A DNA stretch of 64,000 nt from Ardenticatena maritima. GTDB taxonomy: Bacteria > Chloroflexota > Anaerolineae > Ardenticatenales > Ardenticatenaceae. Below, in pieces: positions 50,804 to 57,073 of this stretch (within the stretch, counting starts at the first letter, position 1; every line of letters begins with the position of its first letter). The notes beneath the pieces were generated by a model that saw only the letters and a list, made by a program, of their open reading frames with translations, was not told where the DNA came from and ran no database searches. Both the position numbers and the translations under genes were made by a program. The stretch lies in contig NZ_LGKN01000006.1 in NCBI RefSeq assembly GCF_001306175.1, forward strand, positions 310,001 to 374,000. The letters are read 5' to 3'.

Positions 50804-52429
50804 CTACCCCTCTTCCTCCGCTATCAGCGAGCGCCTGCGCGGCGCAACACGCGGATGCGGGAGCTCTACTTCAATGCGTAATCCCCCCTCAGGGACATTC
50901 GTCAACTTTAAGCGCCCACCTAAAAGCGCCACCCGCTCACTCATCCCCAATAACCCAAAATGCCCATCACGCGCTAATGCCGATAAGTCAAAATCCTCAG
51001 GCAAGCCTTGTCCATTGTCAGCAATCGTCAACAAAATTGTGCGCGGCGAGTTGTGGACCAACGTAATGTGCACTTCTGTTGCATCAGCATGCTTGCGGAC
51101 GTTGCTCAAACTTTCCTGCACGATGCGGAAAATCGAAAGCTCAATATGCTCAGGCAAGCGCGCCACATCTTCACTGATTGCCAGTTTGACCAGAATCCCC
51201 GTTCGTTGGCTCCATTCACGCGCATAGGAGTGCAATGCCGCTCGTAATCCCAAACTGTCAATCGTTGGCGGGCGCAAATTGCTGCAAATGCGCCGCAACT
51301 CCTCTACCATGAAACGAATACCCTGACGAATGTCCTCCAATTCGGCAATCACGTAGGCTGGATTGTCCACATGCTCATCGAGTTCTTCCAACTGGTAGTT
51401 CAAACTCAGCAGGTCTTGAATGATTTGATCATGTAATTCGCGCGCCAGCCGCTTGCGCTCCTCTTCGCGCTCGGTGAGCAAACGCCGCTGCGCCGCTTGT
51501 AAAGCCGCGTTGGCCTCATCCAGCGCTTCAATTTGGCGCGCCAATTGCTCCACCAATTGCTGGTTGAGGGTGCCTTGCGCCGCCAGATTTTGTTCAAGTA
51601 ACATCTGTTTGTGGCGCAACTGTTCAGCCTGCGCGCGCGCCTGATAATAACTGTCCAACGCCCAAATAGCGGGCGTCAACTCGTCTTTACGCGGCGCCCC
51701 AACCATTTCAGCCACAATTTCTTCACGTGTCGTCTCATCTGTGCGGTGCTCGGCAACGACTTCGCCCTCTCGCAAAGTAATAATGCGGTCAGTGACGGCA
51801 AACAGGTGTTCCAGGTTCTTACTGGCAAATAACACCGCCGCCCCCTGGCGTTGCCATTCCTGCACCAGTTGAAGCAAGCGTTGCTGATACGTATAACTCA
51901 ACACACGCGTCGCTTCATCAATGTACACCAACCGTGCCGGCTCCAACAAAGCACGCGCAATGACCAACAATTGCCGCTGCTCGCTCGATAAATTCACCAC
52001 AGGCTCATCGAGCGAGGGGAAAACCACCCCCAAACGCGCCAAAACCTCACGCGCACGGGCATGCATTTCCCACCGGTTCGGCAAGCGAAAGAGCCAAAGC
52101 CGCGCCCGCCGTCCTGCTTCGCGCCCCAAGAAGATATTACTGAGGACATCCAGTGAATCCACAACAAACGGCTCTTCAAACAACACCTCGATACCCAGCG
52201 CCGGCGCCTGAAAAGGGAACGTCAGAGGGCGTCCATCGAAGAGAAGAGTGCCACTTGTTGGCGCACTCACCCCCGCCAGAATATCAGCAAGCACGCTTTT
52301 CCCTGCGCCGCTCCGCCCCGCTATCCCAACAACTTCGCCAGGATACACATCAAACGAGACCCGTCGCAACGCCGCCAGCGAACCGAAGGTTTTGGTGAGC
52401 GCATGCACGCGCAAAATTGGTTCACGCAT
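50804..52429 (-). CDS. ABC ATPase domain fused to a NarL-type histidine kinase
   Basis: A soluble 541-residue protein with two joined modules. Residues 1-245 are an ABC ATPase domain paralogous to the neighbouring transporter ATPase: Walker A GRSGAGKS at 38-45, Asp171/Glu172 of Walker B, but Q-loop Gln is Glu85, the LSGGQ signature is LSSEQ at 147-151 and the H-loop His is Lys204. About 255-320 is a coiled coil. Residues 320-540 are a kinase of the HisKA_3/HATPase type: His333 in RELHDQIIQDL, N-box Glu439/Asn443, IADNGQGLP and GLLGMSERV. No membrane segment is present. The start at 52429 begins with the ATPase; a promoter lies just upstream. I propose sensing through the importer; no characterised example comes to mind. 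Confidence 0.88.
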   Translation of the reverse strand: MREPILRVHALTKTFGSLAALRRVSFDVYPGEVVGIAGRSGAGKSVLADILAGVSAPTSGTLLFDGRPLTFPFQAPALGIEVLFEEPFVVDSLDVLSNIFLGREAGRRARLWLFRLPNRWEMHARAREVLARLGVVFPSLDEPVVNLSSEQRQLLVIARALLEPARLVYIDEATRVLSYTYQQRLLQLVQEWQRQGAAVLFASKNLEHLFAVTDRIITLREGEVVAEHRTDETTREEIVAEMVGAPRKDELTPAIWALDSYYQARAQAEQLRHKQMLLEQNLAAQGTLNQQLVEQLARQIEALDEANAALQAAQRRLLTEREEERKRLARELHDQIIQDLLSLNYQLEELDEHVDNPAYVIAELEDIRQGIRFMVEELRRICSNLRPPTIDSLGLRAALHSYAREWSQRTGILVKLAISEDVARLPEHIELSIFRIVQESLSNVRKHADATEVHITLVHNSPRTILLTIADNGQGLPEDFDLSALARDGHFGLLGMSERVALLGGRLKLTNVPEGGLRIEVELPHPRVAPRRRSLIAEEEG

Positions 52430-52463
52430 GGGGGTTCCCCACAGGTTTGGATCGTTATCGTCT

Positions 52464-52492
52464 ATTGTACCCGGCCCACAAAACAGCAACAA
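52464..52492 (-). promoter_or_regulatory. Promoter of the ABC-histidine kinase gene
   Basis: On the minus strand TTGTTG (52492-52487) and TACAAT (52469-52464) are 17 bases apart, about 35 bases before the start at 52429. The -35 box lies inside one arm of the hairpin at 52487-52513. Confidence 0.6.
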
Positions 52493-52549: not shown

Positions 52550-53785
52550 TTATCCAAGCCCTGATTGAGCGCGGTTTCGCCGTGAAATCGCATCAACAAG
52601 GACGGCAACTAACAGCACCAACCCCGTCACCACAAATTTGACGCCCGAACTGAGCCCCAGCAAGCCCATGCCGTTTTCCACGCTTGCAATGACCAGCGCC
52701 CCCAAAACCGCGCTGGACACACGCCCACTCCCACCAAACAGGCTTGTCCCGCCAATGACCGCCGCCGCAATCGCATTCAGCAACAAGTTTCCACCCCCTG
52801 CCGCCGTATCCACCGAACGCAATCGGGACGCCAGAATAATCCCGCCTAACGCCGCCATCACGCTCGACAACATGAAGACAATCACACGAATCCGCTCCAC
52901 TGCAATCCCGGCACGCCGCGCCGCCTCTTTGTTCCCCCCGACGGCATACACGTATCGCCCAAACGGGGTCCGATTGGCAACGAATGAGAGAATCGCCAGG
53001 AAAACCAGCAATAACACGCCTACAAATGGTACGCCGCGATCTTGGTTGGCGACATAGACGGCGACCACCACTAGCCCCCCTAACCCCGCCAACTGCGCTA
53101 GCACAATCGGTAGCGGCGTCGTTGGCAAACCATGGCGCACACGCGTTTGCACATAGCGAATACGCATCAGGGCAAACCATGCAAAAGCCACAATCGCAAT
53201 ACTCCACCCCCACAGTGGCGGCAAAAAGTAATTGGCAATGCCAATCACCACTTTATCTTGAATAATGACCGTGCCGGCGCCGCCAATCATCATCAACACA
53301 ACACCATTCCATGCCAACAACCCCGCCAATGTGACCACAAATGAAGGAACCTGGAAGCGCGTAATAATCAACCCCTGCAACAAGCCAATGCCGGCCGCCA
53401 CCAATACCCCTGCGCCAATGGCGGCAAACCAAGGCCAATTGTAGGGTGCTTTCAAAAGCAGCGTCATGGTGACAGCCGCCACGGCGCTCACATAACCAAT
53501 TGAAAGGTCAATTTCGCCAAGCAACAAAACAAAAACAACGCCATACGCAATCGTGGTAATCCCCGCCATCTGAACAATCAGGTTCACGAAGTTGCGCGCC
53601 GTCAGAAAGTTTTCATTCTGTGATTGGAAAATGACGGCAATCACGATCAACCCCAACACAATGGGCAACGATCCCAAATCCCCCGCGCTCACTCGCTTGA
53701 AGTATGTGCGCAAATAGTCCCCCACGCTGAGAGTGGGCTGTGCTGCCATCAAGCCATTGGCGGGGCTTCTTTCATTGGCGGTCAT
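52550..53785 (-). CDS. Xylose/ribose-type ABC importer permease (XylH-like)
   Basis: A 411-residue permease of the BPD_transp_2 type with about ten hydrophobic helices: the first is LPIVLGLIVIAVIFQSQN, and LLGEIDLSIGYVSAVAAVTM is the characteristic early motif. Later GGNKEAARRAGIAVERIRV and AAVIGGTSLFGGSGRVSSAV are the family loops near the ATPase docking site. A long loop from 205 to 260 is typical of XylH. Its start overlaps the ATPase stop as ATGA. A homodimer is usual for this family, giving two docking sites for ATPase domains. Confidence 0.93.
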   Translation of the reverse strand: MTANERSPANGLMAAQPTLSVGDYLRTYFKRVSAGDLGSLPIVLGLIVIAVIFQSQNENFLTARNFVNLIVQMAGITTIAYGVVFVLLLGEIDLSIGYVSAVAAVTMTLLLKAPYNWPWFAAIGAGVLVAAGIGLLQGLIITRFQVPSFVVTLAGLLAWNGVVLMMIGGAGTVIIQDKVVIGIANYFLPPLWGWSIAIVAFAWFALMRIRYVQTRVRHGLPTTPLPIVLAQLAGLGGLVVVAVYVANQDRGVPFVGVLLLVFLAILSFVANRTPFGRYVYAVGGNKEAARRAGIAVERIRVIVFMLSSVMAALGGIILASRLRSVDTAAGGGNLLLNAIAAAVIGGTSLFGGSGRVSSAVLGALVIASVENGMGLLGLSSGVKFVVTGLVLLVAVLVDAISRRNRAQSGLG

Positions 53786-54552
53786 TTTCCAACCTCCATC
53801 CCAGGCACATGCGACAACTTGCCAGCCGTAATCGCATGCACCACTTCTTGCTGTGTCGTTTCAGCCGTGACATACTGGGCAACCCGTTGCCCCAGCCGCA
53901 AGACGGTAATACGATCGGCAACCTCAAAGATATCGTGCAAATTGTGCGAAATCAAGATGACACCAATCCCCTGGTCGGCAAGGCGGCGCACCAAATCAAG
54001 CACCTGACGCGTTTGCGCCACCCCAAGAGCAGCCGTCGGCTCATCCAGAATGACGAGGCGCGAATTGCGCATGATGGCTTTCGCAATCGCCACCGCCTGC
54101 CGCTGCCCCCCAGAGAGGCTCGCCACAGGCAAACGCACGGAACGCAACGTCGTGACTGACAGGGAATCAAGCGTTGCAAGGCACTCTTTCTCCATCGCAT
54201 CCTCATCCAGCCGCCAGCCCCATTTCACCTTTTCGCGCCCCAAAAACATGTTGGCAACCACATCCAGATTGTCCGCCAACGCCAAATCCTGATAGACAAC
54301 CTCAATCCCCAAGGCGGCGGCATCTCGCGGCGAATGAATCTCGACTTTACGCCCATCGAAGTAAATGTCGCCTTCATCAAATGTATGAATACCCGCAATG
54401 CCCTTGATGAGGGTGGATTTTCCCGCGCCGTTGTCTCCCACCAACGCCATCACTTCCCCCGCGCGGACCTCAAAATCAACCTTGGAAAGGGCTTGCACAG
54501 CGCCAAATCGTTTGGAAACACCTTTCAATTCCAGCAATGGTCGCTCGCCCAT
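53782..54552 (-). CDS. Single-domain ATPase of the xylose-type ABC importer
   Basis: A 256-residue ATPase with all canonical motifs: Walker A GDNGAGKST, Q-loop VVYQD, signature LSGGQRQ, Walker B LVILDEPTAAL and H-loop ISHN. E. coli RbsA and XylG contain two such domains in tandem (about 500 residues); this gene encodes only one. Single-domain forms such as FrcA exist. A degenerate relative is fused to the kinase encoded at 50804-52429. The alignment around FLGRE runs without gaps between the two. AAAGGAG precedes the ATG. A hairpin separates it from the binding-protein gene. Confidence 0.92.
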   Translation of the reverse strand: MGERPLLELKGVSKRFGAVQALSKVDFEVRAGEVMALVGDNGAGKSTLIKGIAGIHTFDEGDIYFDGRKVEIHSPRDAAALGIEVVYQDLALADNLDVVANMFLGREKVKWGWRLDEDAMEKECLATLDSLSVTTLRSVRLPVASLSGGQRQAVAIAKAIMRNSRLVILDEPTAALGVAQTRQVLDLVRRLADQGIGVILISHNLHDIFEVADRITVLRLGQRVAQYVTAETTQQEVVHAITAGKLSHVPGMEVGK

Positions 54553-54645: not shown

Positions 54646-55752
54646 TTAGCGGTCTGCCGGGCAATACTGCTCGAATTCTCCCACACAAATTTCATCCCAT
54701 GTGCGGAAGCCGTCAGCAATCACCGTTTCGGCGATATTGTCTTTGGTCACGGCAACAGGCGTCAGTTTGACGAACGGAATATCGTTTTGCCCATTGTTGA
54801 TGGTGGCGTTCGCAATCGCCGAGACATCTTCACCACGCAGCAGGCGAATAGCGGCATCGGCGGCGGCTTCTGCTTCCAAGCGGATAGGCTTGTACACCGT
54901 CATCGTCTGCCACCCCGAAAGAATGTTCTGGATACCGCCAACGGTAGCATCCTGCCCACTAAGGGGCACCGGCCCCAAGCCCTGGCTCTTCAACGCTGAA
55001 ATGACCGAGTTCGCCAAGCCGTCATTTGCCGCAAAGACAGCGTCCACATCTCCACCCGCATCGGTCAAAATCTGCTCGAAGATGACGAGGGCTTGCTGGT
55101 TATCCCAATCCGGTACAGCCTGGTCGGCGACCAGTTCCCACGCGCCGGAGTCGTAGTAGGGCTTGGCAACTGAATAGTACCCTTCGCGAAAGAGTGTTGC
55201 GTTGTTATCGGTGGGGGAACCATTGAGTTGTACCACACGCTTCGGATTGTCAGGGAGTGCGTTGATGATAGGTTCCAGCGTGCGCCCCATCAACTCACCC
55301 ACCGCCACGTTGTCAAAACTGACATACAAATCGGCGCCAGGACCCTCAATCGTGAGACGGTCGTAGTCAATCACTTTCACGCCGGCTTCCCGCGCCTGTG
55401 CAATAATGGCGGCGCCACTCCCGCTATCCAGGTTGACCAACAAAATCACTTTTGCGCCGTTCGTGATGGCTTGTTCCGCCTGTGTCTGCTGGACACGCGC
55501 ATCACCCTCGGCGTTCACAATCGTGTACTTGACGCCTGCGGCTTCAAAAGCCTGCTCGAAATAGCGGCGGTCGTCGTTTTCCCAGCGCGCCGATGAAGCA
55601 CTATCGGGGAGCAAAACCGCAATGCTTCCCTCCATGCTTTCGCTACTGCCTGCTTCCTGGTTGCCGCTCTCTTCAGAAGATGAGCCGCCACCGCACGCTG
55701 TGAACGCCAACAACAACACCAGCATGACCAAAAGACTCGCCAATTTTCGCAT
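54646..55752 (-). CDS. XylF-like sugar-binding lipoprotein
   Basis: A 368-residue Peripla_BP_4 lipoprotein. The lipidated cysteine is residue 20 after LLLAFTA. The pattern YDRLTIEGPGADLYVSFDN, then GSPTDNNATLFREGYYSV, SGQDATVGGIQNILSG and MTVYKP matches the D-xylose-binding XylF branch strongly. The linker after the lipid is Gly/Ser/Glu-rich. GGAGGAGAGAATC precedes the ATG. It is the first gene of the importer set, divergent from the response regulator. The sugar is probably D-xylose or a close pentose, by family resemblance only. Confidence 0.92.
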   Translation of the reverse strand: MRKLASLLVMLVLLLAFTACGGGSSSEESGNQEAGSSESMEGSIAVLLPDSASSARWENDDRRYFEQAFEAAGVKYTIVNAEGDARVQQTQAEQAITNGAKVILLVNLDSGSGAAIIAQAREAGVKVIDYDRLTIEGPGADLYVSFDNVAVGELMGRTLEPIINALPDNPKRVVQLNGSPTDNNATLFREGYYSVAKPYYDSGAWELVADQAVPDWDNQQALVIFEQILTDAGGDVDAVFAANDGLANSVISALKSQGLGPVPLSGQDATVGGIQNILSGWQTMTVYKPIRLEAEAAADAAIRLLRGEDVSAIANATINNGQNDIPFVKLTPVAVTKDNIAETVIADGFRTWDEICVGEFEQYCPADR

Positions 55753-55922
55753 GATTCTCTCCTCCCAAGAGGTTGACGATTGAAAAAGCCCTCAAACGAC
55801 AGCACGCCCAGCAAGAAGCATTTTCAGTGCAGGTCTCACCTCCCTTCACGCGCTCCGCGGTTTCATGTTCCATGCTATCCTCCGCAAGGCGCACATTCAA
55901 CCCCTCATCCCCCCTGTGCCCA

Positions 55923-55938
55923 TAGGGGAAATCCCCTA
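55923..55938. promoter_or_regulatory. 7-2-7 inverted repeat, NarL-family binding-site geometry
   Basis: TAGGGGA-AA-TCCCCTA is a perfect pair of 7-base inverted half-sites with a 2-base spacer, the arrangement bound by NarL and NarP dimers. It is in the 271-base divergent region between the binding-protein gene and the response-regulator gene, about 67 bases upstream of the expected regulator transcript start. It could serve the neighbouring regulator. Confidence 0.6.
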
Positions 55939-55961
55939 CACGTATGCGGGGTTTCACACCG

Positions 55962-55991
55962 TTGGCATTTGCATGACGAAATCGGTATACT
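55962..55991 (+). promoter_or_regulatory. Promoter of the response-regulator gene
   Basis: TTGGCA at 55962-55967 and TATACT at 55986-55991, 18 bases apart. Transcription would start near 55998, about 26 bases before the ATG and downstream of the inverted repeat. Confidence 0.65.
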
Positions 55992-56023: not shown

Positions 56024-57073
56024 ATGCACAATCCCGTGCATGTCCTTGTCGCCGACGACCACGAGGTTGTACGAGCGGGCATTGCCAATGCACTCAACGA
56101 AATGGCGCATGTTCGCGTCGTCGCCGAGGTGGGGAGCGGTACTGAATTATTCGAGGCGCTTCAGCGTTTTCAGCCCAACGTGCTCTTACTCGACATTGCC
56201 ATGCCCCACTTTGACCCGCTGCGTGATATTCCGCTCATTCGCCAAACATACCCCCATCTGAAAATTCTCGTGGTCAGCGCCTACGATGACGACATGTACG
56301 TGCAGGGGCTTTTACGCGCAGGTGTGCATGGCTACCACCTCAAAGACCAGCCATTGAGCACGCTGCAAACCGCTATCACGCAAATTTTGCGTGGGGAACG
56401 CTGGTTGTCGGGGCGGCTCATCAACAAACTGGTGGACGCTTCCCCACCCCCACGGTCCCCGCTCCTGACTGACCGTCAGCGGGAAATTTTGCGCCTTTTG
56501 CAACAAGGGCTCGACAACTGTTCCATCGCCCGCCAAATGGGCGTAAGCGTCAAAACCGTCGAAAACCATCTCACACGCCTCTACCGGCGCTTGGGCGTGC
56601 AAAGCCGTCTGGAAGCCGTCCACTATGTGAACGAACACCCAGAACTGCTAGCCGAACCGGTCTCCTCTGCGCCCACCAGCCCGCCATTGCCCACCGCCCC
56701 ACCCTCCGACCTGGTTGTGCTCGTCGTGGACGACAACCACCGCTACCGCCAGCGCTTACAACGCATTGTGCGCAAAATCGCTCCCGGTGCGTTGGTGTGT
56801 GAAGCCGCCTCACTGGCGCAAGCCGCGCACATGGCAAAACGTTTCCAGCCAAGGTTGGCGTTGGTGGATGTGGTTCTTGGAGATGAAAGCGGTATCGAAG
56901 GGGTGCGACGCATCAAGCAAGCATCACCCCACACCCGCGTGGTGCTCATCAGCGCCTATCCCGACCGCGAGTTTCACCGTTCAGGCATCGCCGCTGGTGC
57001 GGTCGCCTTCCTCGACAAAAAAGACCTCGACGCCGACGCGCTGCGCCTGGTGATTGAAGACGCCGCCCGCTAG
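56024..57073 (+). CDS. Response regulator with receiver-HTH-receiver order
   Basis: A 349-residue regulator. Receiver 1 (1-125): Asp11/Asp12, phosphoacceptor Asp57 in LLLDIAMP, Lys107. A LuxR/NarL-type helix-turn-helix at about 145-205: LTDRQREILRLLQQG and VSVKTVENHLTRLYRRLGV. A Pro-rich linker of about 25 residues leads to receiver 2 (230-349): Asp236/Asp237, Asp282 in LALVDVVLG, Ser310 and Lys332/333. A receiver after the DNA-binding domain is unusual for NarL-type proteins. GGAGGGGAGAAA precedes the ATG at 56024; longer readings run through the promoter. The likely kinase partner is the ABC-fused kinase. Confidence 0.9.
   Translation: MHNPVHVLVADDHEVVRAGIANALNEMAHVRVVAEVGSGTELFEALQRFQPNVLLLDIAMPHFDPLRDIPLIRQTYPHLKILVVSAYDDDMYVQGLLRAGVHGYHLKDQPLSTLQTAITQILRGERWLSGRLINKLVDASPPPRSPLLTDRQREILRLLQQGLDNCSIARQMGVSVKTVENHLTRLYRRLGVQSRLEAVHYVNEHPELLAEPVSSAPTSPPLPTAPPSDLVVLVVDDNHRYRQRLQRIVRKIAPGALVCEAASLAQAAHMAKRFQPRLALVDVVLGDESGIEGVRRIKQASPHTRVVLISAYPDREFHRSGIAAGAVAFLDKKDLDADALRLVIEDAAR

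Follow-up and report, generated by a model that had tools for sequence, protein, structure and literature searches.

The closest described counterparts of the locus presented here come from two fields, the control of nitrate genes and the control of sugar import. In Staphylococcus, the response regulator NreC has the operator consensus TAGGG-N4-CCCTA, a formula that we did not find in the open-licence full-text literature. Its sites are GC-rich palindromes at nar, nir and narT (PMC8139620). NarL of Escherichia coli recognizes a 7-2-7 operator, TACYYMT-N2-AKRRGTA (an engineered narG site reads TACCCCTAAAGGGGTA), and represses from high-affinity sites of this kind at frdA (PMC4549865), and it acts as an activator from single sites whose centres lie at -44.5, -67.5 and -77.5 (PMC7419079). 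Two-component systems can also control sugar importers via membrane sensors, the examples being XylFII-LytS (PMC9769921) and CuaD-CuaS-CuaR (PMC10384115), whose kinases are membrane proteins that read an extracellular binding protein.

Here, we describe a locus in a 64,000-nt stretch of DNA from Ardenticatena maritima (the window) that resembles XylFII-LytS and CuaDSR in placing a two-component system beside a sugar ABC importer, which in those cases is controlled by it. The importer genes and the response regulator (RR) gene diverge from a short palindrome, and the features are as follows:

50804-52492, minus strand: ABC ATPase fused to a histidine kinase (ABC_tran, HisKA_3, HATPase_c); likely start ATG at 52429
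52550-53785, minus strand: importer permease, BPD_transp_2, GguB-like (domain search)
53782-54552, minus strand: importer ATPase, a single ABC domain with canonical motifs (domain search)
54646-55752, minus strand: sugar-binding lipoprotein-like protein, Peripla_BP_4, XylF/ChvE-like, below equivalog cut-offs
55872-55900, minus strand: predicted weak importer promoter TTGAAT-N17-TAGCAT, consensus match 8/12
55901-55906, minus strand: candidate half-site GAGGGG, at +16, about one helical turn beyond the next; directly abuts the predicted importer -35
55911-55916, minus strand: candidate half-site CAGGGG, at +6 from the dyad in the direction of the importer genes, where 32/40 relatives have TAGGGG at up to one mismatch
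55923-55938, no strand: putative operator dyad TAGGGG-AAAT-CCCCTA (sequence match and conservation)
55962-55991, plus strand: predicted RR promoter TTGGCA-N18-TATACT, 10/12 of a sigma-70-like consensus, 0.1 expected per shuffle
56024-57073, plus strand: response regulator, REC-LuxR/GerE-REC, 349 aa (domain search, AlphaFold, alignment of relatives)

A Peripla_BP_4 binding protein, an ABC ATPase and a BPD_transp_2 permease occur together, which is the make-up of a CUT2 importer, and all three belong to the same families as in CUT2/monosaccharide importers such as XylFGH and ChvE-GguAB; in contrast to these, the ATPase has one domain and not a tandem, and a further ABC domain is fused to the kinase. 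Since the binding protein reaches 248 bits against TIGR02634 (XylF, D-xylose), below the equivalog cut-off of 389.55, no substrate is assigned. The RR is composed of an N-terminal receiver, a LuxR/GerE DNA-binding domain (PF00196, E 3.6e-18), for which the best solved relatives are VraR, DevR and NarL, and a second, C-terminal receiver, and its AlphaFold model has the same layout (mean pLDDT 87.7). The phospho-acceptors D57 and D282 and both receiver lysines are invariant in 84/84 RRs from the relatives described below, in which both receivers are apparently functional. In the recognition helix, E180 and T184 are invariant (84/84) and N181 is kept in 83/84; variation in this helix had no significant association with the presence of a site (p = 0.085).

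The kinase sets the locus apart from XylFII-LytS and CuaDSR, as it has no predicted membrane or outer domain (no membrane segment was found in the fusion by hydropathy, the highest 19-residue mean being 1.44) and is joined to an ABC ATPase. All 28 fusions scanned contain ABC_tran, HisKA_3 and HATPase_c, and the fusion adjoins sugar importers across Chloroflexota, in 59/84 loci on the contigs available. The H-box histidine and the following aspartate are invariant in 59/59 fusions, so the kinase looks active, and this histidine together with D57 and D282 of the RR provides the residue pairing of a two-component system. Within the ABC domain the Walker A lysine is kept in 57/59, the signature LSGG has become LSxE in 59/59, the Walker B glutamate is Asp in 37/59 and Glu in 17/59, and none of the 59 retains the switch histidine, a pattern that points to a degenerate, pseudo-ABC domain. 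The predicted fold comprises the ABC domain, a long helical part and the catalytic part of the kinase (mean pLDDT 80.1, lower in the helices), and its best matches in the PDB do not extend beyond the ABC part. No description of an ABC ATPase-histidine kinase fusion in Chloroflexi was found in the open-licence full-text literature, and the fusion is likely the more novel part of the locus. The fused ABC domain could be the partner of the single-domain importer ATPase of the window, although this is not a general rule, because other fusions have full tandem ATPases for neighbours (open frames of about 500 codons).

A preliminary description of this DNA had pointed out a perfect 7-2-7 inverted repeat with a good promoter for the RR gene downstream of it. 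Both are found, the repeat as TAGGGGAAATCCCCTA with 7-base arms around AA and the promoter at the position listed above. Its assignment of the repeat to the NarL type fares less well: the 7-2-7 geometry applies to the window and is not conserved among 40 relatives with a site, in which TAGGGG and CCCCTA are separated by 3 bases in 2 loci, 4 in 23 and 5 in 15, and the order of the G and C tracts is the opposite of NarL's. With the E. coli system, the locus shares a NarL/GerE-family regulator, a 16-bp dyad, TA ends, four-base G/C tracts (in the window site) and tandem extra half-sites, and the dyad of the window, about 67 bp upstream of the predicted RR start, may be set beside the NarL activation sites at -44.5, -67.5 and -77.5 (PMC7419079). 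The differences are that the tracts are swapped between the arms (TAGGGG...CCCCTA), the heptamer being TAGGGGA and not TACYYMT/TACCCCT, that the gap between the arms varies from 3 to 5 among the Chloroflexota relatives and that the site goes with a sugar importer, not with nitrate genes, usually at one to two sites per genome. The likeness to NreC extends to the arm letters and their polarity and to a HisKA_3-type kinase with a LuxR-type regulator. However, the window dyad reads TAGGG-N6-CCCTA, which by the formula given above means an arm longer by one G/C pair and a different spacing, there are no nitrate or oxygen genes, and the regulator has a second receiver.

A perfect 7-2-7 repeat by itself is weak evidence and unremarkable. 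Eight of them are present in the window, which is what could be said for a chance palindrome between two genes, and what raises the dyad above chance is its conservation. TAGGGGAAATCCCCTA has no other match in the window at up to 2 mismatches (0.01 expected). The genome scan for the 16-mer proposed in the preliminary description gave one exact copy in 3.56 Mb, the window site, which is also the only A/T-centred site of this genome. The next-best copy, TCGGGGAAATCCCCGA, falls within a coding sequence of 1258 codons, which from a reading of its sequence we take to be DNA polymerase III alpha-like, and it was discarded as a second operator and regarded as a chance copy. A different palindrome, CGCATCAATGCG, occurs twice in the window, at 740 and 15748, both within long open frames, and has 5 exact copies in the genome.

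For the comparison across genomes, an alignment of four regulators was used to scan 84,980 genomes, so that the compared loci were gathered by the presumed DNA-binding protein itself. The scan gave 80 loci, all with Chloroflexota titles, in which the RR gene usually has importer genes of these families and the ATPase-kinase fusion for neighbours. In 84 non-redundant Chloroflexota loci, we then counted TAGGGG-N3..5-CCCCTA within 250 nt upstream of the RR. A site with at most one mismatch is found in 40/84 loci, against 0.1 in shuffled sequences and 0.18 for permuted-arm palindromes, and an exact site in 24/84, against 0 in both controls; the loci are kin, so that shuffle controls overstate their independence, and the RR proteins are mostly only about 50-65% identical. 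That sequence and position are kept at this degree of divergence, together with the shuffle and permuted-arm controls, leads us to reject the chance palindrome, to which we give next to no weight. The preliminary description had staked its reading on the repeat being conserved with the same gene pair, and it is: 30/37 divergent binding-protein/RR pairs have a site at up to one mismatch and 34/37 at up to two. In L043 and L049, too, the left neighbour, at first 'unknown', proved to be a divergent binding-protein gene. Across 1.01 Mb, 49/53 sites are placed just upstream of the RR and/or the binding-protein gene. A close match by the RR is missing from more than half of the 84 loci, partly owing to a binding-protein gene that is elsewhere or off the contig, many contigs stopping before it. 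Comparison of the sequences thus identifies the dyad as a conserved, evidently regulatory site tied to the neighbouring RR and importer. One locus without the TAGGGG dyad, L069, has the palindrome ACGACT-NN-AGTCGT twice upstream of its RR (-205 and -177, 28 bp apart), possibly a changed operator. Among cultured relatives, Chloroflexus islandicus (L103) and Ornatilinea apprima (L107) have the locus, the latter with a degenerate site.

The arrangement of further half-sites is polar. An extra TAGGGG (up to one mismatch) starting 5-8 nt beyond the dyad is found on the importer side in 32/40 loci and on the RR side in 0/40 (mean of 1.6 in shuffled sequences). Weaker peaks follow near 16-18, 28-31 and 36-39 nt, spaced by about one or two helical turns. 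Moreover, eight loci in which the RR and binding-protein genes are not neighbours (L048, L050, L077, L093, L099, L103, L184, L194) have the site in front of the binding-protein gene and not in front of the RR. Since the half-sites extend from the dyad in the importer direction only and rearranged loci keep the site at the binding-protein gene, the importer appears to be its main target, and autoregulation of the RR is probably a secondary role. The preliminary description had proposed that one site serves both the importer and the regulator; a conserved site tied to both agrees with this, and it is the emphasis that shifts towards the importer. Tandem operator-like dyads were seen in two loci (L109:8186-8216 and L114:8917-8947), TAGGGGAAATCCCCCTA being followed almost directly by TAGGGG...CCCCCA.

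All promoter calls are consensus matches only, and on this basis the importer -10 of the window starts 53 bp from the dyad centre. On the RR side, TATAAT/CATAAT starts 50-55 bp from the centre in 15/40 loci (55 in the window), which would place the dyad centre near -63 to -67 of the start predicted from the -10. A half-site that abuts a -35-like hexamer, as in the window, is also present in L072, L098, L106, L061 and L128, and one base away in L043.

The link between site and regulator was also examined genome-wide with the A/T-centred site in 396 genomes of the host's class, 62 with the RR and 334 without. It is present in 26/62 genomes with the RR and in 18/334 without it (Fisher p 9.5e-13). 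By our count, the 26 positive RR genomes contain 30 sites, 20 of them within about 200 bp of the RR gene and 4 at the binding-protein gene belonging to the RR locus (G325, G357, G387 and the second site of G192; in G387 the contig end truncates the gene). A further 3 precede genes for other sugar-binding proteins, of the SBP_bac_1 type (G277, on one side of a ROK gene, G108 and G150), and 3 are without explanation. This placement indicates a system that is mostly local and that has a small additional regulon in some genomes. Relating copies of the site to sugar genes, as the preliminary description suggested, showed second and further copies at other sugar-binding-protein genes in some relatives. 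In six RR-less genomes with a site that were inspected (G355, G326, G336, G294, G280 and G166), no link to sugar genes was shown, and these off-locus sites were treated as background. A genome without an RR ortholog, G171, has 23 copies of TAGGGG-(C/T)(AAA/TTT)(A/G)-CCCCTA, perhaps a repeat family. Neither the single genome sampled from the same genus nor those from the same family yielded the RR, from which the system appears patchy, by loss or transfer.

We propose, with a probability of about 0.78, that the REC-LuxR-REC regulator encoded next to the dyad uses it as its operator, is paired with the ABC-fused kinase and activates the CUT2-type importer and its own gene. In this model, a signal from the importer or its substrate would reach the cytoplasmic HisKA_3-type kinase, fused to a degenerate ABC ATPase, which would phosphorylate the RR. 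The phosphorylated RR would dimerize on TAGGGG-N3..5-CCCCTA and spread over the helically phased half-sites towards the importer promoter, the last half-site in the window abutting the -35, and this array would activate the sugar importer genes, and the dyad, on its opposite flank, would also serve the RR in the control of its own gene. The sequences show the conservation of the site, its co-occurrence with the RR, the polarity of the array and the way in which the site follows the importer promoter. The RR is the probable dyad-binding protein as judged from sequence, and activation is the sign of control suggested by position. We infer that the kinase responds to the transporter's state, and likewise what its ABC domain senses.

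Two other readings of a functional site have to be weighed against this one, and they differ from it in the sign of control and in the protein that binds. The same RR, phosphorylated or not, could sit on the array and block the importer promoter, so that induction would consist of its release. A protein bound up to the importer -35, which the half-sites reach in the window and in about six relatives, could occlude the promoter, and NarL represses from its high-affinity 7-2-7 sites at frdA (PMC4549865); however, the sites are upstream of the predicted promoters and not over them, and a dyad near -63 to -67 on the RR side of typical loci suits activation, so that we consider repression unlikely. 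Less likely still is that the dyad belongs to a different regulator, for example a LacI/ROK sugar repressor encoded elsewhere, with the RR gene merely a co-regulated neighbour. Sugar-importer operators are often LacI/ROK sites, one off-locus site adjoins a ROK gene (L179) and the site goes with the binding-protein gene and not with the RR. Against these points stand the scarcity of the site in RR-less genomes (18/334 versus 26/62) and the combination of a dyad with tandem half-sites in helical phase, which is typical of NarL-family response regulators, and an incidental look at the examined loci revealed no LacI/ROK gene.

Activation of the importer by the neighbouring RR would add a defined operator, a regulator and an unusual kinase to what is known of a large phylum that is mostly uncultured and little studied as to the control of sugar import, and the site is usable for target prediction, as some genomes contain further copies at other sugar-binding-protein genes. 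More tentatively, and with somewhat less than even odds, the locus may represent a form of transport-coupled signalling special to Chloroflexota, in which the pseudo-ABC kinase pairs with the importer ATPase or permease, reads transporter activity directly from the cytoplasm and hands phosphate on to a regulator whose two receivers both work and which oligomerizes in helical phase along the array next to the importer promoter. With this locus one can test whether nutrient sensing by a histidine kinase can rest on being part of, or docked on, the motor of an ABC importer, and not on an outer domain.
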